Assembly (NCBI GenBank): GCA_025964625.1
Contig: JAOPYL010000326.1
Coordinates: 1-35,434, forward strand
Source of the DNA: Actinoallomurus sp.
GTDB lineage: Bacteria > Actinomycetota > Actinomycetes > Streptosporangiales > Streptosporangiaceae
Length of the DNA: 35,434 bases
Reading direction: 5' to 3'
In this document: positions 14,904 through 25,298 of the stretch, in pieces
Numbering within the stretch: position 1 is the stretch's first letter
Layout of the letters: the number at the start of each line of letters is the position of its first letter
Notes under the pieces: generated by a model
What the model was told of the DNA's origin: nothing
Databases searched by the model: none
The model's input: only the letters and a program-made list of their open reading frames with translations
Translations under genes and position numbers: made by a program

Positions 14904-15728
14904 CTACTTGAAGATGTTGACGGCCCTCGAGATGACCAGGGCGACGGTGACGATCGAGACCGCCGACTGGAGCAGCATCAGCATCTTCGACCAGCGGCTG
15001 AGCGGCATCACGTCTGTGGGGCTGAACGCGGTCGCGTTGGTGAAGGACAGGTACAGGTAGTCCGGGAACGCCGGCTCCCAGTCGGGCGGCGACATCTCCG
15101 GAGTGGCCATCTGCGGGAACAGGAAGTCCGGATGCGGCCGCCGGCCGATCGCGCGCGCCGCCGGGCCGCCCCGGTCCAGCTCCCAGTACCACAGGGCGAA
15201 GACGATGACGTTGGTCCCCCAGATGGCCAGGCCACTGGTCAGCAACGTTCCACCGCTGTTCCCGGCACTCCCGTTGACCAGGTCCCGCACCAGCAGGACC
15301 GCCGAGATCCCGTTCGCCAGGCCGATCACGGTGAGCAGGGCCAACCCCCCGACGCGGATGACCGTCGACTCGCGGTTGATGCGCACCGGGTTGGAGATGA
15401 TGAGGCCGATCAGCAGCGCGGCCTCCAGCGCCGGCAGCAGCAGGTGCGGCTGCACTGCGAACCGGCGCGGCAGCACCACCTGCAACGCGATCGCCACGAC
15501 GATCGCGAGCGCCGTCCATACCCGCTGCTCGCCGTCGGTACGGCGCAGCCAGGCGGGCAGATGGACCTCCCCCGTGCCGTCATCGCGCAGCACCCCCTGA
15601 AGCCGCATCATGTGTCCCCGCAGGGCCTCGGCCAGATACCGCTCCCGGCTCGTCTCGTGTTTCACTCCCACAGTCTGCTGGTACCGATACCGGGCCGGTG
15701 GCGTGACCCCCGAAGACGGCGGCATCAT
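14904..15728 (-). CDS. Integral membrane protein, DUF1345-like
   Basis: 274 residues. A hydrophilic N-terminal ~80 residues is followed by about five hydrophobic segments (two near 85-130, then near 145-170, 185-215 and the C terminus). The stretch 'FPDYLYLSFTNATAFSPTDVMPLSRWSKMLMLLQSAVSIVTVALVISRAVNIF' closely matches the DUF1345 / two-TM ion-channel-like pattern. Function unknown. ATG 15728 overlaps the MarR stop as ATGA and has GAGGA upstream, so both are translated together. Confidence 0.75.
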   Translation of the reverse strand: MMPPSSGVTPPARYRYQQTVGVKHETSRERYLAEALRGHMMRLQGVLRDDGTGEVHLPAWLRRTDGEQRVWTALAIVVAIALQVVLPRRFAVQPHLLLPALEAALLIGLIISNPVRINRESTVIRVGGLALLTVIGLANGISAVLLVRDLVNGSAGNSGGTLLTSGLAIWGTNVIVFALWYWELDRGGPAARAIGRRPHPDFLFPQMATPEMSPPDWEPAFPDYLYLSFTNATAFSPTDVMPLSRWSKMLMLLQSAVSIVTVALVISRAVNIFK

Positions 15729-16228
15729 GGTGGGTCCTCGTGGCCGGCGCTCCCCGCGCCGAGCCGGTCTTGATGCCGGGTGAGCTTGGCCAGCAGTGCG
15801 CGCAGCTGTTCGCCCTCCTGTGGCTCCAGGCGCGACAAGAGTGCCTGGTTGACCGTGTTCGCCGCGTGCGCGGCCTCGCGTAGCCGGTCGCGGCCGGCTT
15901 CGGTGAGCTCCAGGAGGCGCCGGCGGCGGTCGGCCTGGTCGACCGTACGGGACACCAGCCCGCGCTGCTCCAGGCGGAGCATCACGGTGGCGAGTGTGGC
16001 CTTGTCGATGGCGGCCACCGCTCCGGCGGACGCCTGATCGATGCCGGGCCGGCCGGCGATGGCGCACAGGATGGCGTACTGCGATTTGGTGAACCGAGGC
16101 ATGTGCTCCTGCCACGCCGCCGTGTGCTCCTGGAGGGCGCGCCGCATGAGGTGGTAGGCGGCCTCCTGAACGCCGCCACCGGCGGGCGCCGGCACTGATG
16201 ACGCGTCGAGCCTGAATTCGGAGTTCAC
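15725..16228 (-). CDS. MarR-family transcriptional regulator
   Basis: 167 residues with a winged helix-turn-helix. 'LTRHQ', 'IDKATLATVMLRLEQRGLVSRTVDQADRRRRLLELTEAGRDRL' at ~75-120 is the MarR DNA-recognition helix, wing and following helix. It probably acts as a dimer binding an inverted repeat in the intergenic region it shares with the divergent SDR gene, answering to a small phenolic or lipophilic ligand as is common in the family. GTG 16228 is the only convenient start; its RBS is weak. Confidence 0.88.
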   Translation of the reverse strand: MNSEFRLDASSVPAPAGGGVQEAAYHLMRRALQEHTAAWQEHMPRFTKSQYAILCAIAGRPGIDQASAGAVAAIDKATLATVMLRLEQRGLVSRTVDQADRRRRLLELTEAGRDRLREAAHAANTVNQALLSRLEPQEGEQLRALLAKLTRHQDRLGAGSAGHEDPP

Positions 16229-16256
16229 GCCGCGACGCTAGTCTGTAGCCGAACAG

Positions 16257-16272
16257 TTTGTCATCGAACAAA
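16257..16272. promoter_or_regulatory. Predicted MarR operator
   Basis: TTTGTCATCGAACAAA, with 5-bp perfect arms TTTGT/ACAAA, lies midway between the divergent MarR (start 16228) and SDR (start 16327) genes. The half-site CGAACA also occurs as a direct repeat at 16250-16255 and 16265-16270, 15 bp apart. Confidence 0.55.
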
Positions 16273-16326
16273 TCTCCTCGGGCACCTGGCGAGCGCCCGC
16301 CGCATTCCGGACAAGATGGAGGCCCC

Positions 16327-17130
16327 ATGCACACGAACCGGCCAGACGCCGCCACGGACGGCGACGCGCTCGCACTCGACGCGCGGAAGGTCCTGGTGAC
16401 GGGCGGCACCAGCGGTCTGGGCCTGGCGATGGCCACCGCACTGGCCGACGCGGGAGCCACCGTCGCGCTGACCGGCCGGTCGGGTGCACGCGCACGCGAG
16501 GTCGCGGCCCGCATTCCCGGTGCGACAGGCATCGAGCTGGACGTACGCGACGAGTCGTCGGTGAGCCGCGCCGTGGCCCAGGCATGGTCCGAGCTCGGCG
16601 GAATCGACATGCTCGTCAACAACGCCGGGATCGGCATGCGGACCGTCAATCCGCGGTTCCTCACCGACCCCGAGGGATTCTGGAAGGTCCCGGTCGACGG
16701 CTTCCGCGCCGTCATCGAGACCAACCTGACCGGCTACTTCCTCATGGCGCGTGAGATCACACCGCGGATGCTGGCGGCCGGTCACGGCCGCATCGTGAAC
16801 ATCTCCATGAACCACGCCACGATGAACCGCGCCGGCTTCGTCCCCTACGGCCCCTCACGGGCGGGCGCCGAGGCCCTCTCCCGGATCATGGCGGCCGACC
16901 TGGCCGGATCCGGTGTCACGGTCAACCTGCTGCTGCCCGGCGGAGCGACGGTCACGGGCATGCTGCCCGCCGAGCAGATATCCCGCGACCACGACTTCAT
17001 CGATCCCGCCGTCATGGGACCGCCGGTCGTGTGGCTGGCCTCCTCCCGGGCGGCCGGCGTCCATGACGAGCGCATCGTCGCCATCGAGTTCGACGAATGG
17101 CTGCGCCACCGGACCGGCGTCACCATCTGA
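16327..17130 (+). CDS. SDR-family oxidoreductase with Tyr-x-x-x-Arg active site
   Basis: 267-residue classical short-chain dehydrogenase. TGGTSGLG at 25-32, NNAG at 98-101, 'NISM' with Ser160, and Tyr174 in YGPSR. The usual catalytic lysine of YxxxK is replaced by Arg178. ATG 16327 is chosen because GGAGG ends 4 nt upstream; an in-frame ATG at 16258 would lie inside the MarR operator. The gene is divergent from the MarR regulator and is the likely target of that repressor. Reduction of a carbonyl substrate is the family role; the substrate is unknown. Confidence 0.86.
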   Translation: MHTNRPDAATDGDALALDARKVLVTGGTSGLGLAMATALADAGATVALTGRSGARAREVAARIPGATGIELDVRDESSVSRAVAQAWSELGGIDMLVNNAGIGMRTVNPRFLTDPEGFWKVPVDGFRAVIETNLTGYFLMAREITPRMLAAGHGRIVNISMNHATMNRAGFVPYGPSRAGAEALSRIMAADLAGSGVTVNLLLPGGATVTGMLPAEQISRDHDFIDPAVMGPPVVWLASSRAAGVHDERIVAIEFDEWLRHRTGVTI

Positions 17131-17242: not shown

Positions 17243-17584
17243 TCAGTCCGCCGGCAGGAGAGTCCCGAGCGGTCCGAGATCGAGGTTCAAATCGCTCGGG
17301 GCCAGGCCGAAACGCTCGCACAGTTCTGTCATGGCATCTTCCAGCCGCATGAGTGTCAGGCCCAGTGCCTCCACCTGCTCCTCGGACAGGTCGCCTCGGT
17401 CGACGCGGTGGATGGCCTGACGCTCGACCAGTTGGCGGACGAGCTCGACGACGGTGAGCACGAGCCGCGTCAGATCACGCTCGACGTTCTCCGCGTCCGT
17501 CTCGATGCGCCGGCCGCCGGCTCGTGTCCCGTCTCGCGGGCCGGTGTCGGCGGACCGGCTGTACTCGTTCCCGGGCTCACTCAT
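17243..17584 (-). CDS. gvpK: Gas vesicle protein GvpK
   Basis: 113 residues with the GvpK signature: 'ENVERDLTRLVLTVVELVRQLVERQAIHRVDRGDLSEEQVEALGLTLMRLEDAM' followed by 'FGLAPSDLNLDLGPLGTLL'. It is an accessory protein required for gas-vesicle assembly in other organisms; its biochemical role is not settled. It is the last gene of the gvp operon. ATG 17584 overlaps the end of the preceding gvpS-type gene by 8 bp. Confidence 0.93.
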   Translation of the reverse strand: MSEPGNEYSRSADTGPRDGTRAGGRRIETDAENVERDLTRLVLTVVELVRQLVERQAIHRVDRGDLSEEQVEALGLTLMRLEDAMTELCERFGLAPSDLNLDLGPLGTLLPAD

Positions 17585-17804
17585 CCCCGTACCGCTCCAA
17601 CACGTCGAGCTCCCCTACCGACGTGATCAGCAGCCGCAACGAGATGTGGACGAGATCGATGTCGGCTATCGACAGGACCAGGTCGCCGCTCAGAGCGACT
17701 CCCCCGGACAGCAGGCGGTCGAGCAGGTCGACCAGCGCTACCCTCTCGGCCGGAATGCGGCCTTCGGCCGCGAGCGCGCCGCCCAGTGTGTGCTCGGCCG
17801 TCAC
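17577..17804 (-). CDS. gvpS: GvpA-family minor gas vesicle protein (GvpS/GvpM type)
   Basis: 75 residues, PF00741-like fold: 'ERVALVDLLDRLLSGGVALSGDLVLSIADIDLVHISLRLLITSV', the helix-strand-strand-helix core of gas-vesicle structural proteins. The sequence and position before gvpK match GvpS of Streptomyces clusters. Start is GTG 17804, overlapping the gvpL stop as GTGA, with GGAG 8 nt upstream. It is likely a minor shell or nucleation component rather than the main rib protein. Confidence 0.88.
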   Translation of the reverse strand: MTAEHTLGGALAAEGRIPAERVALVDLLDRLLSGGVALSGDLVLSIADIDLVHISLRLLITSVGELDVLERYGDE

Positions 17805-18589
17805 GCGCGGGTCTCCGTGCTCTGGCCGCCGAGTTCCGCGGTGAAGGAGTACGGCGCCCACGGACCGGTGAGCTGTACGTCGACTCCGCCCCCGGCCAGT
17901 GTGCCGGTGAGGGCCGCGAACTCCTGACCGCGGCCGGCGTCGACGAGGTAGGCGCCGTTGAGCACCATCCAGTCATCGCGGCCCGACAGTTGCGGATCCT
18001 GGGTGTGATGGCGCCGGGCGGCCACGGCGACGGCCGTCAGTGCGGCGTCGATCTCCTCCGCACGCTCGACCGCCGCGCGCCAGGTGGACTCCCGGCTGCG
18101 CAGACTCGTCCTCCGGCGTTTCAGGTATGCCGTCCCCGGCCGCCGCGCCCCCGTGCCGCCCTCGTCGGCGGGTTCTGAGGAGACGGCGTCTTTCGGATCG
18201 ACGTACACCTTCACCCCCCATTCCTGCCGCCCGGCCACGTTGCTGAGCACGGTGCCGAACTCCTCCGATCTGTCCTCCAACAGGCGGCACACCTGTTCGT
18301 CGCCGCTGTAGACGGTCACCAGCCGCACGGGCGCCGTGGGAGCCGCCCGCGCCACGCCGCCCACGACGCGATGGTGGGCGCGGGCGGTCGCCTCCAGCCA
18401 GGCGAGATCCTCCAGGTTGCGGCGCAACGCATCCTCCCCGAACTGTGTCAGCGGGACCGTGCTGACGTACGCGGTGAGGCCTCCTCGCGCAACTGCCCGC
18501 ACCGCCGTCTCCGCCACACCGGTCAGGCACGCCGGGACATCGCCGATGTCCCGCGCGACGGCGTACAGATAGGACCCGGACTCAGCCAT
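17801..18589 (-). CDS. gvpL: Gas vesicle protein GvpL (GvpF/L family)
   Basis: 262 residues. N terminus 'GSYLYAVARDI', middle 'APVRLVTVYSGDEQVCRLLEDRSEEF...GRQEWGVKVYVD' and C terminus 'LTGPWAPYSFTAEL' match the GvpF/GvpL family. Family members bind GvpA monomers during vesicle nucleation. It is one of two GvpF/L paralogs here; the other is at 19692-20462. ATG 18589 overlaps the gvpJ stop by 8 bp and is followed by gvpS with a GTGA overlap. Confidence 0.92.
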   Translation of the reverse strand: MAESGSYLYAVARDIGDVPACLTGVAETAVRAVARGGLTAYVSTVPLTQFGEDALRRNLEDLAWLEATARAHHRVVGGVARAAPTAPVRLVTVYSGDEQVCRLLEDRSEEFGTVLSNVAGRQEWGVKVYVDPKDAVSSEPADEGGTGARRPGTAYLKRRRTSLRSRESTWRAAVERAEEIDAALTAVAVAARRHHTQDPQLSGRDDWMVLNGAYLVDAGRGQEFAALTGTLAGGGVDVQLTGPWAPYSFTAELGGQSTETRA

Positions 18590-18983
18590 GACGCCCCCGT
18601 GATCTGTTCGAGCGCTCCCCGGCAGGCTTCTTCTCCGGACCTGCGACGGTCCGGCGCGCCCCGTCGCCCTCCTCCAGGGCGGCGAGCCGATCGCGAAGCC
18701 GCTCGTTCTCCTCCTCCAGCTCCCGCTGGTTCGAACTCAGCCAGGCGTCTTTCTCCCACCAGTCGATGCCCAGCTCGCGCGCGGTCTCGACGGAGACGAC
18801 GAGAAGCCGTAGCTTGATCGTCAGGAGCTCGATGTCGAGCAGGTTGACGCGGATGTCTCCCGCGATGACGATCCCCTTGTCGAGAACCCGTTCGAGGATG
18901 TCACCCAGACTGCCTGAGCCGGGGCTGGATACCTGCCCTCCGCCATAGGGCTGGGGAACCGCGGGACCCGATCCGCCCGGCAT
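18582..18983 (-). CDS. gvpJ: GvpA-family protein GvpJ with coiled-coil and basic tail
   Basis: 133 residues. A Gly/Pro-rich N terminus, the PF00741 core 'LGDILERVLDKGIVIAGDIRVNLLDIELLTIKLRLLVVSVETARELGIDWWEKD', then a short coiled coil ('QRELEEENERLRDRLAALEE') and a basic tail. The 'WWEKD' and coiled coil are typical of GvpJ in Streptomyces. ATG 18983 shares one base with the gvpO stop (TGATG) and has GAGG 7 nt upstream; GTG 18986 is the alternative. Confidence 0.88.
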   Translation of the reverse strand: MPGGSGPAVPQPYGGGQVSSPGSGSLGDILERVLDKGIVIAGDIRVNLLDIELLTIKLRLLVVSVETARELGIDWWEKDAWLSSNQRELEEENERLRDRLAALEEGDGARRTVAGPEKKPAGERSNRSRGRHG

Positions 18984-19405
18984 CACGACACCTCGCCAGT
19001 GTTGCTCCGGCCCCGCGTGTAGCGGCGGGTTCTGCGGTACGACGTCAACGACCCCTCCCTGTCGATCTGCACCTCATAAAGCGCGAGTACATTGCTCGAC
19101 GAGGGGACGCGGCGGTCCTCCAGTACCTCCACCTCGACGGTCCAGCCGTCCTCCGCCGGCACCAGGGACGTGATCCCCTCAGCGCGTCTGCCGGTCATGC
19201 CGGCGACGAGACGCAGCCCGGCCTCAGCTGCGGCCTGGGCCGTGAGCTCGAGAGACCCGCGCCGTCCGCGTTCCCCCGGTGGCACGTTGGCCCCGGGCTC
19301 GTCGTCGTAGTCCTCGTCGTAGTCCTCGTCGTAGTCGTCCTCCTGGTGCTCCGAATCGGATACGTCGTCCGTACGCTCATCGCGGTCGCCGCGATCGGTA
19401 GGCAC
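18983..19405 (-). CDS. gvpO: Gas vesicle protein GvpO with acidic repeat N terminus
   Basis: 140 residues. The C-terminal half is the GvpO domain: 'WTVEVEVLEDRRVPSSSNVLALYEVQIDREGSLTSYRRTRRYTRGR'. Residues ~19-36 are an acidic tract with a repeated DEDY unit. GTG 19405 is supported by AAGGAGG 4 nt upstream. In haloarchaea GvpO is needed for vesicle formation; its exact role is unknown. Here it follows gvpG by 52 bp, unlike Streptomyces clusters where gvpO comes first. Confidence 0.9.
   Translation of the reverse strand: MPTDRGDRDERTDDVSDSEHQEDDYDEDYDEDYDDEPGANVPPGERGRRGSLELTAQAAAEAGLRLVAGMTGRRAEGITSLVPAEDGWTVEVEVLEDRRVPSSSNVLALYEVQIDREGSLTSYRRTRRYTRGRSNTGEVS
19302..19337 (-). repeat. Three 12-bp tandem repeats inside gvpO
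   Basis: tcgtcgtagtcc occurs three times in a row (last base varies). On the coding strand each unit encodes Asp-Glu-Asp-Tyr or similar, building the acidic tract. Being in-frame 12-mers, copy changes would alter tract length without frameshift. Confidence 0.8.
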
Positions 19406-19457
19406 GGGTCCTCCTTCCCTGCGGGCGCAGACACTGTCGAGCCGCGACCGGACGGGG

Positions 19458-19679
19458 TCACGTGAGCATTCGGTTGAGGACTTCCTGCTGGGCCTCGGCC
19501 TCTTCCTCCGCGGAGATGAGGCCATCCGCCCTCGCCTGTTCGATCTTCTCCAGGTCGCGCCGGATCGCCATCGGCGAATACATCTCCTGCTCGACCTGTT
19601 GCCGCACGACCTCGGCGATCGCGACGAGTCCGTTCACCGGAGCGAACGGCAGCGTGACCAGCATCCGCAGCAGTCCCAT
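19458..19679 (-). CDS. gvpG: Gas vesicle protein GvpG
   Basis: 73 residues, the full length of the family: 'MGLLRMLVTLPFAPVNGLVAIAEVVRQQVEQEMYSP' then a charged helix with 'RRDLEKIEQARADGLISAEEEAEAQQEVLNRML'. Accessory assembly protein, found next to gvpF in most clusters. The start lies 12 bp after the gvpF stop, with GAGGTGA 7 nt upstream. Confidence 0.93.
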   Translation of the reverse strand: MGLLRMLVTLPFAPVNGLVAIAEVVRQQVEQEMYSPMAIRRDLEKIEQARADGLISAEEEAEAQQEVLNRMLT

Positions 19680-19691
19680 GCCGCATTCACC

Positions 19692-20462
19692 TCAGTTCGG
19701 CTTGACGACGAAGTCGTACGGCGCGAGCGGACCGCGCAGACGCAGGTCGATCCGCTCCTCCCATCCGCGGGCGAGGCCGTCCAGGGCGTCCTCGAAGTCG
19801 GACCGCCGGGCGGTCTCGACGAGCAAGGCCACGTGAACGGCGTCCTGCTCATGTGTCGGCTCGCGTACCGCGGTCGCGACCGAGTGCGGGGACAATGCCT
19901 GCATAAACCTGTCGGTGTCCGCGTCACGCTTCGCCGCGAGGCCCTGCTGGATGATCTCTCCCAGCCGCATACGGACATCGCGTGTCGCGTCCTCCGTCGT
20001 GTCGCCGATCTCCTCACGCAGGCGAGCGGCCTCGTCGTTCTCCGCGAGCAGCTCGGTAAGCACGGCCCGTTCGACGTACCGGCCTTTCACGATGTACTCG
20101 GCGCGTCCCTCCAGTTCTTCGAGCGCGGCGAGGAACTGGTCATGATGGGGTGCGAGCAACTCCTCGGCGACGGCCTCAGGAGTTGTCATCACCGCGCCGA
20201 AGCGCAGGGGAAGGACGGGCGCCTCGATGACGGTGGCGTTCAGAAGCTCGTCATGAGCCTTGAGATCCTGTGGCGTGCCTATGGCATCGTCGGGGTGGAT
20301 CTCGCTGACCAAGGCCGCGATCTCCCCGTGGCGCACGACCGTCACCGGACGGTCGCCCAGACCGCGGGCGTCAGGCGTCGACTCGACGTCTCCCGGCACG
20401 ATGCCGTAGACGTAACAGGCGGCGTTGTGTTCCTCCTCGGATGCCCACTCAGGCGCGGCCAT
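19692..20462 (-). CDS. gvpF: Gas vesicle protein GvpF (GvpF/L family)
   Basis: 256 residues. 'ACYVYGIVPGDVES' at the N terminus, 'VIEAPVLPLRFGAVMTTPEAVAEELLAPHHDQFLAALEELEGRAEYIVKGRYVE' and C-terminal 'LRLRGPLAPYDFVVKPN' are GvpF signatures. In studied systems GvpF binds GvpA and acts in vesicle nucleation. ATG 20462 (MAAPEWASEE) is chosen over far-upstream starts: it has GGAGG upstream and lies one base after the gvpA stop. Confidence 0.93.
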   Translation of the reverse strand: MAAPEWASEEEHNAACYVYGIVPGDVESTPDARGLGDRPVTVVRHGEIAALVSEIHPDDAIGTPQDLKAHDELLNATVIEAPVLPLRFGAVMTTPEAVAEELLAPHHDQFLAALEELEGRAEYIVKGRYVERAVLTELLAENDEAARLREEIGDTTEDATRDVRMRLGEIIQQGLAAKRDADTDRFMQALSPHSVATAVREPTHEQDAVHVALLVETARRSDFEDALDGLARGWEERIDLRLRGPLAPYDFVVKPN

Positions 20463-20463
20463 G

Positions 20464-20889
20464 TCAGCTCTCCTCCACTCGACGGCGCTTGCGGCGAGGC
20501 GCCGGTTCTTCTTCGTCGTCATCGGGGTCGCCAATGAAATCGCGCAGTTTTTCCCCTGCCGCGTCGAGCACACCCTGCGCGGCGCCCTTCGTCTTCTTCT
20601 TGGCTCCGCTCTGCTGCATGCCCCCCACGAGATCCGGGAGACCGACCCCACCGGTCTTGGCGAGGTCCAGGCGGTTCGCCGCTTCCGCGAATCGCAGGTA
20701 GGTGTCGACACTCGCGACAACGACACGCACGTCGATCGTCAGCACCTCGATGCCGACCAGCGACACCCGGACGAACGCATCGATCACCAGCCCCTTGTCG
20801 AGGATCGTGTCGATGACATCGGCGAGCCCTCCGCCCGACGGACGTCCGCCCCCGCCTCCGCCGCCTGCTGCCTGTATGGCCGTGGTCAT
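20464..20889 (-). CDS. gvpA: Major gas vesicle structural protein GvpA (GvpA/J family)
   Basis: 141 residues. Core '[55 protein letters not shown]' at ~22-76 is the amphipathic rib-forming fold of GvpA. A Gly-rich N terminus precedes it, and a ~65-residue C-terminal extension ends in an acidic block (~120-127) and a basic block RRKRRR (131-136). Canonical cyanobacterial GvpA is ~70 residues; extended forms are known in Streptomyces. ATG 20889 has a strong GAGGAGGA upstream, fitting high expression. Confidence 0.9.
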
Positions 20890-20922
20890 TCCGTTCCTCC
20901 TCTTCCTGTCGCGTCGCGCGGA

Positions 20923-22002
20923 TCAACCGGCCTGGGCCCTGCTCCTCCGGCGTGCCGCACGTGGGCGCGCCGGCGGCTCGGGCTCCGAGTCGGGCTCCTC
21001 CTCGCCGTACTCCTCCTGCTCGTCTTCCTGCAATGCCTCTTCGTCGTCGTCTTCGGGTTCGGAGGTGTCGGCGTCCTCCTCGGCGCACTCCTGCTCTGCT
21101 TCGTCTTCCTCGCCGGCCGGCTCCTCCGGTTCCCGCTCTCGCCGGTCGGTGGCATCGTCCTCGTCGACCGCCTGACCGTCGCGGATCACGCCGCGCCATC
21201 CCTCAAGGTCATCGGGGTGCAGGACGGTCTGCGTCATCACATGCCGCTGGAAGTGCTTGAGTTCCAGGCGCACCCGCCGGCCCTGAGCGCGCCAGAGGTT
21301 CCCGGTCCGCTCGAACAACCCCTTCGGGTGGTACTCGAGGACGAGCAGGATGCGGGTGAGGTCCGGCGTGAGCTCGTGGAAGGTCACGGCCCCGTCGACG
21401 TGCCCTTTCTGGCCCCTCGATCGCCAGACGATCCGCTGGTCCGGGACCTGGTCGATGATCGTCGCATCCCACTCGCGGCGTGACCAGAAGATCTGCGCCT
21501 TCCAGTGCAGCTTCTCGTCGGCCTCCTGGGAGACGTTCTGCACCTTCTTCGTGAAGCTCGGGAAGTCCGCGAACTGGGTCCACTGGTCGTAGGCCAGGTC
21601 CACCGGCGCGCCCACATCGATCGCCTCGACGATGTTGGTGAGCTTCAGCTTCTTGCCCCTGCTGCCGCCTCCACCGCCGGTCGCCTGCTTGACCTTCTCC
21701 TTGACCGCGCCCATACCGGCGCCGAACATCGCCTTCGCGGGAGACTTTCCCTCGCCGGGCTTCTGCCCTCCGGTCAATGCGGCCATCAGCCCAGGGCTGC
21801 CGTTCTCGGCGTGGTCCGCCAGCCGATCCGTGGTGGCCTCGACCTTGTCCAGCATCGACGAGAGCGCACGGTTCCCGAGTGCGCCCACCAGGTTCCCGAC
21901 CTCTCCGATCAGGCGATCGGCGTGCAGTTCGCCGATGATCTCCTTGTCCGGGAGCTTTGCGGTGATCGCGTCCAGCGGCTTGCTCTTCGACTTCGAAGCC
22001 AC
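20923..22002 (-). CDS. SRPBCC-domain gas vesicle cluster protein with acidic-basic tail
   Basis: 359 residues in three parts: an N-terminal amphipathic and Gly-rich region (1-115), an SRPBCC/polyketide-cyclase-like domain (~120-260, 'IVEAIDVGAPVDLAYDQWTQFADFPSFTKKVQNV', 'WDATIIDQVPDQRIVWRSRG', 'TRILLVLEYHPKGLFE'), and a long acidic region (~280-343) ending in RPRAARRRSR. SRPBCC proteins occur in Streptomyces gvp clusters as GvpZ, so it is probably a GvpZ relative. GTG 22002 is preferred because GGAGGTGA lies 5 nt upstream, overlapping the previous stop; GTG 22011 would give a GTGA overlap. It may bind a hydrophobic ligand or shell surface; that is inference. Confidence 0.8.
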   Translation of the reverse strand: MASKSKSKPLDAITAKLPDKEIIGELHADRLIGEVGNLVGALGNRALSSMLDKVEATTDRLADHAENGSPGLMAALTGGQKPGEGKSPAKAMFGAGMGAVKEKVKQATGGGGGSRGKKLKLTNIVEAIDVGAPVDLAYDQWTQFADFPSFTKKVQNVSQEADEKLHWKAQIFWSRREWDATIIDQVPDQRIVWRSRGQKGHVDGAVTFHELTPDLTRILLVLEYHPKGLFERTGNLWRAQGRRVRLELKHFQRHVMTQTVLHPDDLEGWRGVIRDGQAVDEDDATDRREREPEEPAGEEDEAEQECAEEDADTSEPEDDDEEALQEDEQEEYGEEEPDSEPEPPARPRAARRRSRAQAG

Positions 22003-22007
22003 TCCAC

Positions 22008-22595
22008 TCACCTCCGTGTCCGCCGGACGGGCGACCGGCCCACGGCGCCACTGGGCCGCGGAGCACGCCGCCGCGGTTTCGCGGACTCCTCGGCTTCGGG
22101 CTCCTCCGGTTCGCGCCGTGCGCTGCCGCCGCCGGACTCCCGGCGGGTGCTCTTCGGGGCCGCACGCCGCTCAGGCTTCTTCCTCGCCGGCCTCTCCTCC
22201 TCCGGTGCTTCGTCCTCACCGGGCTCTTCGTCCCAGTCCCCCTCGTCCTCGTCCGCCGTCTCCTCGGCCGCATCCGCCGGCTTACCCGCCCGGCGGAGCA
22301 GCTCCGTACGTTCCTGCAGCCGGTCGCTCAGCGCGTCGATCTGGCTGGTGGCGGCCGACATCACCGCCGCCTTTCCGGTCTCGGCCAGACGCCCTCGGAC
22401 GGTCTCGGCGAGCGTCTTCAGCTCCGGAGACGAACCAAGCACCTTCGCCCCGTGCCGGGCCAGGTCGGACGGGCTGGTAGGCAGCCGACCGGCCGCTCCC
22501 GCCGTCACCAGCATGAGCGCCCAGCGCATCTTGCGAGTCCGCCCGAGCATGTAGCCGGCCGTGACGGCCAGGGCGATCTGTGGTCTCGCCTTCAA
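22008..22595 (-). CDS. Membrane-anchored polyampholyte protein of the gas vesicle cluster
   Basis: 195 residues, first gene of the gvp operon. 'MKARPQIALAVTAGYMLGRTRKMRWALMLVTAGAAG' gives hydrophobic segments at ~7-36; a helical region (~60-105, 'LAETVRGRLAETGKAAVMSAATSQIDALSDRLQERTELL') may be coiled coil; then an acidic block (111-134) and a long basic, disordered tail to RRTRR. Similar proteins accompany actinobacterial gvp clusters (GvpY or GvpT-like), but I cannot fix the family. Start is TTG 22595 with GAGGAG 7 nt upstream. Confidence 0.75.
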   Translation of the reverse strand: MKARPQIALAVTAGYMLGRTRKMRWALMLVTAGAAGRLPTSPSDLARHGAKVLGSSPELKTLAETVRGRLAETGKAAVMSAATSQIDALSDRLQERTELLRRAGKPADAAEETADEDEGDWDEEPGEDEAPEEERPARKKPERRAAPKSTRRESGGGSARREPEEPEAEESAKPRRRAPRPSGAVGRSPVRRTRR

Positions 22596-22901: not shown

Positions 22902-23951
22902 TCAGGCGGTGAGGAGAACCCAGCGGGGAAGCGGTTCGGCCAGATGGAGCCATTCGCCGGGAGCGATGGCCGGTCCCGCTCCTCCCATGTCGCCGCGGCC
23001 GGTGCGGGCCGCGACGACGCCTCCGGTGATGGCACAGGTGGTGTCGACGTCGCCGAGGCCTTCCGCCGTGGTCCACAACGCCTCGGTCAGATGATCGATG
23101 TGATGGGCGGCACTCCACAGGGCGAAGGGGACGGTGTCGTCGGCGCGTATGCGACTGCCGTTGCCGAGGATGTCCGCGGCCTTCCAGGCGGGGAGGTCGT
23201 CGGGCAGGTCCGCGGCGCGCAGGAGTCCCTCCCGGGTCGCGCTCGCGGGGGTGTTCGCGGCGACCTCCCTGAGCAGGTCCGCTCCGTAGAGCATGCCGGC
23301 CGTCGACTCCGGCGGCACGTCTCCCGCGCGCGTGTCATCACCCTGGCGGCCCGCCACAAGGTCACTCCAGCGCGCATCGTGATCGACCCAGCCGGCCACC
23401 GCCAAGGCCGCGGCGACGGCCACCGCCACGGCTCCGGCCATCCCCTCGGCATGGGCGTGGGTCACCCGGGCCGACCGGGCCGCCTGCTCCGCCGTCGATA
23501 CCAGATCCGGGCCGAACCAGGCACCGATCGGAGCCGCCCTCATCGCAGCGCCGTTGCCGAGGCTGCCCTGTCCGTCGAACAGGTCACGGGCGGCCGCCCG
23601 CCAGCCGGAGGGATCCGCGCGAAGGAGGGGCAGCAACTCGTGCATGCCCGCCCCATAGCCCCGCCCCGGATCGGCGGCATAGGTGTCGGCGAAGGCTCGC
23701 GCCAGGTCGTCCTCGACGATCTCGCCGTGGTCGTACAGCACCTTGAGTACGCCCAGCGCCATCGCCGTGTCGTCCGTCCACTTCCACGCCCCCGCGCCGG
23801 GAAGACGGTCGCCCCGCACATCGGGCAGACACCGCGCCAGGATCAGTCGGCGGGCCTCCGCCTTGGTGGGCGAGAACCAGCGCTGGCCGAACGCGTCCCC
23901 CAGCGAGAGCCCCATGATGCAATCGAGAACCGCGCGTCGATTGACCGGCAT
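22902..23951 (-). CDS. ADP-ribosylglycohydrolase family protein (DraG/ARH type)
   Basis: 349 residues. Metal-binding motifs of the family are present: WTDDT at 58-62, 'GSLGNGAAMRAAPIG' at 129-143, 'THAHAEG' at 164-170 and GDVDTT at 300-305, which together hold two Mg ions. Members remove ADP-ribose from modified proteins, nucleic acids or metabolites; the target here is unknown. ATG 23951 gives the typical start (PVNRRAVLDCIMGLSLGDAFG); an in-frame ATG at 23978 has no better RBS. It is a single gene with no dinitrogenase reductase nearby, so a nif-regulating DraG role is unlikely. Confidence 0.9.
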   Translation of the reverse strand: MPVNRRAVLDCIMGLSLGDAFGQRWFSPTKAEARRLILARCLPDVRGDRLPGAGAWKWTDDTAMALGVLKVLYDHGEIVEDDLARAFADTYAADPGRGYGAGMHELLPLLRADPSGWRAAARDLFDGQGSLGNGAAMRAAPIGAWFGPDLVSTAEQAARSARVTHAHAEGMAGAVAVAVAAALAVAGWVDHDARWSDLVAGRQGDDTRAGDVPPESTAGMLYGADLLREVAANTPASATREGLLRAADLPDDLPAWKAADILGNGSRIRADDTVPFALWSAAHHIDHLTEALWTTAEGLGDVDTTCAITGGVVAARTGRGDMGGAGPAIAPGEWLHLAEPLPRWVLLTA

Positions 23952-24070
23952 AGCCGCATTCTGCAATACGCCCGCCATCGCGGCGAGTGATACGCGAAGC
24001 CGGTCGAAGGGCCGCCACCGGCCCGTCGCATGTGAGTCACGCCGGCCGCCGCCGGTACCCGGTTCACGTT

Positions 24071-24119: not shown

Positions 24120-25298
24120 TCAGCCGTGCGGGCGGAACACCACGCGCACGCAGCCGTCCTTCTTGTTCTTGAAGATGTCGTAGCCTTTGGGGCCCTCGTC
24201 CAGCGACATCTCGTGTGTGGCCAGATGGCGGGCCGACATCTCACCGTTGGCGATCCGTTTGAGCAGCATGGGGATGTAGCGGTGCCCGTGCTGCTGGGCG
24301 CCCGCGACCGACAGGCCCTTGTTCATCATCGGGCCGAGCGGGAACTTGTCGGCCAGGCCGCCGAAGACGCCGAGGATGAACACCGAGCCGCCCTTGCGGC
24401 AGGAGTAGATGGCCTCGCGGACGGCGATCGGCCGTTCCTGCTGCAGGCGGAGTTGCTGCTTGACCTTGTCGTACGCGTACTGCCCATCGGGGACGCTGAC
24501 GGCCTCCATGCCGACCGCCTCGATGCATACGTCGGGGCCGCGGCCGCCGGTGCGTTCCCGAAGCTCGGCGTCCACGTCGATCTTGGAGAAATCGATGGTC
24601 TCCGCGTCGATGTACCGTTCGACCATCGCCAGCCGCTCGGGCAGCCAGTCGATGACGATGACGCGCTCGGCACCGAGGATCTGGGCCGACCGGGCCGCCA
24701 TCTGACCGACCCCGCCCGCGCCCCACACGGCGACGATGTCGCCGGACTTGACGCCGCCCAGGTGGGCGCCCATCCATCCGGTGGGAGCGGCGTCTGACGC
24801 GTACAGCGCGTCCTTGTCGCTGACTCCGTCGGGGATGGGGAACGTGCCGTAGTCGGCGAACGGGATACGGATGTACTCCGAGTGGCTGCCCTTGAATCCG
24901 CCCATGGCGTGGGAGTAGCCGTAGACGCCACCCGTCTCGAAGCCGAAGATCTCCTGCGCCAGCTCCCAGTTGGTGTTGGTGTTGTCGCACAGCGACCACA
25001 GGTCGTGCGTGCAGTACCAGCAGCGGCCGCAGCCGATGAAGGAGCACACCACGACCCGGTCGCCCACCTTGCGGCGGCGCACGCCCGACCCGACCTCGAC
25101 GATCTCCCCCATGAACTCGTGCCCGATCACGTCGCCCGACTTCATGGTGGGGATGTAACCGCCGATGAGATGCAGATCCGAGCCACAGGTCGTGGTCAGC
25201 GTGACCTTGAGGATCGCGTCCTGGTCGTTGAGGATCTGCGGGTCCGGAACGCGTTCCACGGCCAGCTTGTTCACGCCTTCCCAGCACAGCGCCTTCAC
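24120..25298 (-). CDS. Zinc-dependent alcohol/formaldehyde dehydrogenase-like enzyme
   Basis: 392 residues, medium-chain dehydrogenase. Catalytic zinc ligands Cys38 (TTCGSD) and His60-Glu61 (GHEFMG); structural zinc cysteines 90, 93, 96 and 104 (CGRCWYC...C); NAD-binding GAGGVG at 193-198 with 'VIVIDWLPERL' after it. The long insertion near 265-290 and the C terminus resemble the glutathione-independent formaldehyde dehydrogenase-like subgroup. It would oxidise an alcohol or aldehyde with NAD. GTG 25298 overlaps the upstream gene's stop as GTGA, with a G-rich RBS. Substrate not determined. Confidence 0.88.
   Translation of the reverse strand: MKALCWEGVNKLAVERVPDPQILNDQDAILKVTLTTTCGSDLHLIGGYIPTMKSGDVIGHEFMGEIVEVGSGVRRRKVGDRVVVCSFIGCGRCWYCTHDLWSLCDNTNTNWELAQEIFGFETGGVYGYSHAMGGFKGSHSEYIRIPFADYGTFPIPDGVSDKDALYASDAAPTGWMGAHLGGVKSGDIVAVWGAGGVGQMAARSAQILGAERVIVIDWLPERLAMVERYIDAETIDFSKIDVDAELRERTGGRGPDVCIEAVGMEAVSVPDGQYAYDKVKQQLRLQQERPIAVREAIYSCRKGGSVFILGVFGGLADKFPLGPMMNKGLSVAGAQQHGHRYIPMLLKRIANGEMSARHLATHEMSLDEGPKGYDIFKNKKDGCVRVVFRPHG

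Follow-up and report, generated by a model that had tools for sequence, protein, structure and literature searches.

What do blocks of opposite charge do at the ends of several proteins encoded by one gas vesicle (gvp) operon? The operon lies in a 35,434-nucleotide stretch of Actinoallomurus sp. DNA (contig JAOPYL010000326.1 of assembly GCA_025964625.1), hereafter the window, as ten co-directional genes on the minus strand that run from 22595 to 17243 with short gaps or none. A preliminary description of the window held that five of the encoded proteins carry charged tails or repeats and suggested that these cluster the assembly electrostatically or organise it much as a condensate would. We found that two proteins, which we call GvpY and GvpZ, have genuine, conserved tails of a kind unusual for these genomes; the tail of GvpA is a weaker case, and GvpO and GvpJ are excluded. 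The recurrence in many related bacteria suggests, short of proof, that the tails may help to organise vesicles in the cell. The block pattern, conserved in two accessory proteins, offers a definite handle on the function of gvpY and gvpZ and on the purpose of gas vesicles in soil actinobacteria.

Charged tails in the gvp operon

The operon order is GvpY-like protein, SRPBCC protein (GvpZ), GvpA, GvpF, GvpG, GvpO, GvpJ, GvpL, GvpS-like protein and GvpK, and its Pfam matches (PF00741 three times, PF06386 twice, PF05120, PF05800 and PF05121) mark it as an actinobacterial gvp operon. The first gene (22008-22595, minus strand like all operon features below; TTG start), recognised by a hidden Markov model (HMM) of the protein core and by gene order, encodes a 195-amino-acid protein. 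By charge reading, its tail (residues 109-195; 22011-22271) passes through two acid-base rounds from about residue 109 and ends in PVRRTRR (residues 189-195; 22011-22031), a motif pattern seen in relatives. The second gene (20923-22011), which overlaps the first by 4 bases, encodes a 362-amino-acid SRPBCC protein (PF03364, E=3.2e-16, residues 133-254) whose tail (residues 279-362; 20926-21177) is a long acidic block followed by RPRAARRRSRAQAG. GvpA (20464-20889; PF00741) is the 141-amino-acid long form and matches the NCBIfam long-GvpA model PRK09368 with 170 bits over a cutoff of 151, as did 29 of 29 aligned GvpA proteins at E<=0.001. Its tail (residues 117-141; 20467-20541) reads acid-base-acid. 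These readings agree with the preliminary description, in which the three proteins end with an acidic and then a basic block, and add the short acidic end of GvpA.

We compared the sequence charge decoration (SCD) of each tail with that of its shuffles. The GvpY tail (net charge -3) had an SCD of -7.12, against -1.04 +- 0.68 when shuffled; the GvpZ tail, in which some 60 acidic-block residues precede RPRAARRRSR, had 14.4 against 21.7 +- 1.2, and the GvpA tail -1.62 against -0.01 +- 0.47. Charge was thus segregated beyond shuffles in these three tails, and not in that of GvpJ. Because the GvpZ tail is strongly net negative (-28), it should on its own repel rather than condense.

The preliminary description had also listed GvpO and GvpJ. 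GvpO (18983-19405; PF05800; start inferred as the GTG at 19405) does have an acidic stretch with DEDY repeats (19295-19384), overlapping a 12-base tandem repeat of 2.9 copies with 100% match (19302-19336), but the stretch is N-terminal and not a tail, and an acidic block occurs anywhere in the protein in 25 of 88 relatives. GvpJ (18582-18986; PF00741), a GvpA-like protein with a coiled-coil-like stretch, does have a basic tail (net +5 over 28 residues), but the segregation in it is no greater than in its shuffles and a basic block is present in 15 of 80 relatives. Two of the five proteins listed there, GvpO and GvpJ, lack the shared pattern as a conserved feature.

AlphaFold modelled GvpY with modest confidence (mean predicted local distance difference test score [pLDDT] 62, predicted template modelling score 0.30), placing helices in residues 4-104 and a tail mostly below 50. 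For GvpZ, a low-confidence tail stands beside a confident core. The core (residues ~125-292) belongs to the SRPBCC/START superfamily by AlphaFold, Foldseek and PF03364, and has the fold of DR_A0006 (3ggn) and the ZhuI aromatase/cyclase (3tfz), with a Foldseek E of about 1e-8; it differs from them in sequence (12-21% identity) and in the long acidic tail. With tail pLDDT mostly <60 and most of both tails lacking secondary structure in the models, the GvpY and GvpZ tails are predicted to be unstructured.

GvpY and 32 relatives matched no Pfam or NCBIfam family at E<=0.01 beyond charged low-complexity matches. The latter (capsid protein, RNase E, PARP and similar; one match to a GvpA model at E 0.0053) were discarded. 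The GvpY alignment has a conserved GYxLGR start, and R192 is present in at least 90% of alignment A1. We do not claim a helical domain common to GvpY and GvpZ, for which a profile match over 23 columns had 35% probability.

Conservation of the tails in related clusters

We scored tails by a strict acid-to-base test (a net charge of -6 or lower in 12 residues, followed by +5 or higher in 10, close to the C-terminus) and a looser one (5 in 12, then 4 in 10). GvpY, GvpZ and GvpA of the window pass the strict test, and GvpF, GvpG, GvpO, GvpJ, GvpL, GvpS and GvpK fail it. Because the thresholds were chosen after the window had been seen, its three passes are not independent evidence, and support must come from relatives.

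The first set of relatives comprised 89 loci: 80 named-genome loci (the best 80 of 542 related stretches), ten more from Actinoallomurus and the second cluster of the window's own genome, minus two duplicates (L110, on the same contig as L026, and L126, on that of L021). Nine GvpJ entries that in fact represented the GvpA open reading frame (ORF) were removed. The query was GvpA including tail peptides, so these loci lean towards the GvpA of the window, and for this reason we made a second set. For it, the GvpO Pfam model was used to find clusters, and 40 stretches (39 genomes) were picked by hand to spread over genera from the 89 of 150 order genomes and 54 of 246 class genomes that have GvpO; orthologs were assigned by core-only models built from the first set. 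Three stretches (L182, L190 and L199) repeat named loci; a recount without them (37 loci) changed the counts slightly and the odds not at all, and the counts given below for the second set alone are from this recount unless 40 loci are stated. ORF starts were set mechanically (longest), so N-terminal counts, as for GvpO, are approximate.

For GvpY, 55 of 72 tails in the first set passed the strict test and 69 the looser one; acid preceded base in all 72, covering 26 of 26 genera, and 58 had a single-tail permutation p<0.05. For GvpZ, the strict and looser tests were passed by 43 and 53 of 76 tails, respectively, and acid preceded base in 68 of the 69 testable tails and in 24 of 24 genera (7 were not testable), with p<0.05 in 61. 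The second set gave the acid-base order in 31/31 GvpY and 29/31 GvpZ tails, with strict passes in 11/32 and 12/31, respectively, and the core HMM found GvpY orthologs in 35 of the 40 GvpO-fetched loci. Over both sets, 102 of 104 GvpY, 105 of 107 GvpZ and 119 of 126 GvpA tails were more segregated than the shuffled mean. GvpA tails had acid before base in 82 of 89 first-set loci (25 of 27 genera) and in 33 of 37 second-set loci, with looser passes in 27/89 and strict passes in 6/37, respectively.

Among the other first-set proteins, the strict test was passed by none of GvpF (89), GvpG (88), GvpL (86), GvpS (85) and GvpK (82), by 5 of 80 GvpJ and by 16 of 88 GvpO. The looser test raised the GvpO count to 71 of 88, a rise that, from reading the sequences, we attribute to the folded C-terminal domain rather than to a tail. 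Outside the clusters the pattern was rare: the strict test was passed by 0/454 and the looser by 7/454 called genes in 40 stretches of five Actinoallomurus genomes, the strict test by 0/494 genes in a second background run, and by 1/867 genes flanking gvp clusters (128 loci from many genera, three repeat loci included). The background genes came from a codon-based gene caller whose calls span 0.77 of the background bases and which detects 85 of 107 GvpY.

The preliminary description had proposed comparing tails in other actinobacterial clusters, and held that the idea would fall if they were missing from relatives. The GvpY and GvpZ pattern recurs in most of the examined Actinomycetes clusters that hold the two proteins, and it therefore survives that objection. 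The form of the tails varies. They are arginine-rich in most Streptosporangiales, weak in family f19 and KKAPAKK-like in a large genus (g57), and GvpY is Ser/Lys-rich in Brevibacterium and Nesterenkonia. A pattern P[VIL][RTHLAS]R, typically PVRRTRR, lies within the last 14 residues of 50 of 72 GvpY proteins, with at least one member in 18 of 26 genera.

Several clusters deviate from the common form. In the f19 genomes (L219, L220, L227-L230), the cluster is rearranged to O, J, L, K, A, F, Y, Z and the tails are weakly charged. A second Actinoallomurus cluster type (L020, L021, L022) has its SRPBCC gene downstream of gvpK; the tail is Ser/Lys-rich instead of acid-base, and the locus showed no GvpY. 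In a locus of another family of the class (L237), a GvpZ-like SRPBCC protein has a long lysine-rich tail (KKSTPRKSTAKK), again with no GvpY found in the locus. In a Nonomuraea genome (that of L080), a GvpY-like match (L242) contains one in-frame TGA, and the fetched gvp locus showed no GvpY. Five Actinomadura loci (L104, L114, L099, L084 and L122; L108 is a weaker case) lie in genomes that gave no GvpY match, and most have long acid-base-acid GvpA tails. A second gvp cluster of the window's genome lies on a different contig (C164), which ends just upstream of the gvpA of that cluster. An ORF beside it (L007, 11035-11292) encodes a repeated acid/base stretch (RRRPSDEAGERPQRPARRRP) and is probably the end of a second GvpZ. 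The same contig carries what we take to be a trigger-factor-like ORF and a ClpP-like ORF.

Gene order and the names GvpY and GvpZ

The two genes adjoin in every locus that has both (72/72 in the first set, 31/31 in the second). As in the window, the pair lies upstream of gvpA in 67 of the 72 named loci that have GvpY. We take the order in Streptomyces coelicolor to be O-A-F-G-Y-Z-J-L-S-K, where the position of gvpK is our assumption and the rest follows a published table. In that table, gvpY and gvpZ are SCO6503 and SCO6504, placed after gvpG (PMC5839063). The pair sits likewise between gvpG and gvpK in the other five named loci (Nocardiopsis, Streptomonospora, Glycomyces) and in 11 of 37 others; the window differs from S. 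coelicolor in having it upstream of gvpA. From this gene order we named the 195-amino-acid protein GvpY and the SRPBCC protein GvpZ. Their identity with SCO6503 and SCO6504 is an assignment by gene order, not by sequence comparison.

A possible role in organising vesicles

We tentatively favour an electrostatic organising role for the charge-block tails, holding it the likeliest single reading of the sequences and models while giving it less than an even chance. By analogy with a proposal for Bacillus megaterium, the GvpA tails probably extend outwards from the vesicle wall, on its outer face, and would together form a dense layer of charge-patterned chains. GvpY, with its helical N-terminal part and a basic last segment that often ends in PVRRTRR, and GvpZ, with its SRPBCC/START-type domain and acidic tail, would be accessory proteins whose multivalent tails engage this layer and one another. 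Such contacts could keep subunits or vesicles close to one another while vesicles grow or are packed. GvpY and GvpZ would then act like GvpU and GvpT of Bacillota, to which we detected no sequence relation.

This kind of system has been described, and the preliminary view that the idea was new was mistaken in kind. A phase transition of GvpU is reported to regulate gas vesicle clustering (Li et al. 2024, as cited in PMC11445434), and GvpU and GvpT are stated to act through an elongated GvpA C-terminus in Bacillota (PMC10903477). The same C-terminus has been put forward, tentatively, as the source of additional density at the surface of B. megaterium vesicles (PMC10185304). GvpU and GvpT of Priestia (Bacillus) megaterium thus resemble GvpY and GvpZ as accessory proteins of gvp clusters that are proposed to organise vesicles via GvpA. 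They differ in being described as exclusive to Bacillota, and GvpZ belongs to the SRPBCC proteins. Neither GvpY nor any of 32 relatives matched the NCBIfam GvpT/GvpP model NF041669 at E<=0.01, and no GvpU family was named in general Pfam and NCBIfam scans, whose libraries were not checked for GvpU content. GvpC of cyanobacteria and haloarchaea is likewise an accessory protein on the outer face of GvpA, as described in PMC10185304 and PMC10903477; a GvpC-type repeat is not evident by eye in GvpY or GvpZ, and GvpC is not among the Pfam matches of the ten operon proteins. Charged GvpY or GvpZ tails were not mentioned in the listed titles and abstract openings of open-licence gas vesicle papers, the form in which most of these papers were covered.

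By this analogy, the tails may form a variant of the known GvpU/GvpT kind of system, not a new kind. It is rather unlikely that GvpY, GvpZ and the GvpA tail make up an actinobacterial vesicle-organising system that acts by charge-blocked disordered tails and arose independently of GvpU/GvpT, with GvpY as central organiser and PVRRTRR as its docking point. If the organising role is real, charge-blocked tails would give cells another means of arranging gas vesicles, independent of the known one and useful for engineered acoustic reporters.

Evidence against the organising role, and constraint on tail charge

Several results weigh against an organising role. One concerns charge complementarity between the two tails. 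The raw rank correlation between GvpY and GvpZ tail charge was negative (rho -0.38, 105 loci), but it disappeared under independent contrasts on a GvpF+GvpK+GvpZ-core tree (r 0.01, p 0.91) and did so again without repeats (102 loci, r 0.02, p 0.86). Because the correlation is lost after phylogenetic contrasts, we rejected complementarity as a lineage effect; the group-wise correlations (rho -0.36 and -0.42, 60 groups) fall with it.

Distribution is another. No GvpY match was found in 6 of 6 Actinomadura genomes with gvp clusters (for one of them, scoring covered 150 of 157 candidates), so a vesicle cluster need not contain GvpY. For GvpZ, absence from these genomes applies to the fetched loci, and several of those end at a contig edge. 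GvpA tails are weak overall in the first set, with strict passes in 19/89 and single-tail permutation p<0.05 in 14/89. They are longer in loci that did not yield both GvpY and GvpZ (median 27 vs 22) and pass the strict test more often there (8/23 vs 12/103, Fisher p 0.011), a comparison that is not corrected for relatedness and whose 23 loci are largely Actinomadura, several ending at a contig edge. In three clusters outside the class, none of the three GvpA tails has a basic block; GvpZ is present in two, and both tails end acidic (one with a preceding basic stretch). GvpY was not found in these three loci. The lack of GvpY matches in the six Actinomadura genomes, the lost charge correlation and the longer GvpA tails fit a redundant or lineage-specific role. 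Published work adds two points: one laboratory could not confirm the effect of GvpU on clustering (PMC11223475), and gvp disruption is reported to leave Streptomyces buoyancy in liquid culture unaffected (PMC5839063).

Substitution counts bear on whether tail charge is under constraint. With a BLOSUM alignment, charge-changing substitutions were fewer than expected, at very low p values, in GvpY (75/290 vs 154.0), GvpZ (120/335 vs 193.2) and GvpA (36/84 vs 49.6) tails. A BLOSUM alignment favours like-charged pairs, and we therefore redid the test with a nucleotide-identity alignment and controls, covering 17 of 25 GvpY pairs and 19 of 26 GvpZ pairs; those left out were mostly the more divergent, and GvpA was left out. 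Single-base charge-changing substitutions were still depleted in GvpY tails (61 vs 119.0 expected, ratio 0.51) and GvpZ tails (115 vs 159.0, ratio 0.72). The folded cores were about equally depleted, also to the detriment of the organising role (GvpY 0.54, GvpZ 0.69), and the controls spanned the same range (GvpF 0.62, GvpL 0.91, GvpO 0.50, GvpJ 0.83, GvpK 0.83). The tails, being depleted about as much as the cores, are under constraint, not special constraint. Under a simple mutation model, this constraint argues with moderate strength against pure drift. The persistence of block order across lineages is a stronger argument than the substitution test.

Of the proposal first made for this operon, one part holds: the pattern is not due to chance and is not private to one genome. 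Complementarity between tails does not hold, and six Actinomadura genomes have no GvpY match.

Alternative explanations

Ranking close behind the organising role, and still rather unlikely, is the opposite of clustering: charged tails would keep hydrophobic GvpA and its helpers soluble and the vesicles apart, in the manner of an entropic bristle or polyampholyte brush. The high charged fraction of all three tails (medians 0.50, 0.59 and 0.56) favours such a shield, as does the retention of GvpA tails, at greater length, in loci that yielded at most one of GvpY and GvpZ. A simple shield, however, could work without a fixed acid-to-base block order and without a C-terminal motif that recurs across relatives, and from polymer physics block segregation is expected to promote attraction.

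That the basic ends bind nucleic acid and so tether vesicle assembly to the nucleoid or to RNA, with the acidic blocks serving solubility or autoinhibition, is improbable. Five of the six GvpY tails read in g57 (a genus of another family, probably Streptomyces) are of a KKAPAKK type like that of histone H1, and a Kitasatospora GvpY gene is annotated 'histone protein', but most other lineages have R/P-rich tails unlike H1, and GvpZ is strongly net negative (median -34).

We give slightly less credence to the view that a single partner (such as GvpO, GvpL/F or GvpZ) docks on the PVRRTRR motif and that the remaining tail is a spacer. The C-terminal recurrence of the motif speaks for this view; the loci read from Brevibacterium, Nesterenkonia, Nocardiopsis, Streptomonospora and Glycomyces, which lack the motif and keep the acid-base order, speak against it.

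Equally poor is the case for low-complexity drift in high-GC DNA, or for arginine-rich nitrogen storage, with no organising role: the tail DNA contains short tandem repeats and a storage role has been suggested for S. coelicolor Gvp proteins, described as rich in R, E and P (PMC5839063), but other genes in these genomes and loci seldom show the pattern, GvpY block order is the same in 26 of 26 genera and charge-changing substitutions are depleted.

Other genes of the operon and its surroundings

The remaining operon genes encode GvpF (19692-20462; PF06386), whose C-terminal tail is not charged, GvpG (19458-19679; PF05120), GvpL (17801-18589; PF06386), a GvpS-like GvpA paralog with a mechanically set start (17577-17861; PF00741) and GvpK (17243-17584; PF05121). 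The GvpN ATPase is stated to be present in all gvp clusters (PMC10903477). No match over the TIGR02640 cutoff was found in this genome, whose assembly is ~95% complete, and none of 8 weak AAA-type matches lies on the two gvp contigs; gvpN is likewise absent from the S. coelicolor gvp gene list in PMC5839063.

Upstream of the operon on the same strand lies an ADP-ribosylglycohydrolase gene (22905-23978; PF03747, E 8e-49), followed by one for a zinc-type alcohol dehydrogenase (24123-25298, minus strand; PF08240, PF00107). Downstream of gvpK, positions 15728-17127 hold a short-chain dehydrogenase gene on the plus strand and a gene for a MarR-type regulator on the minus strand.

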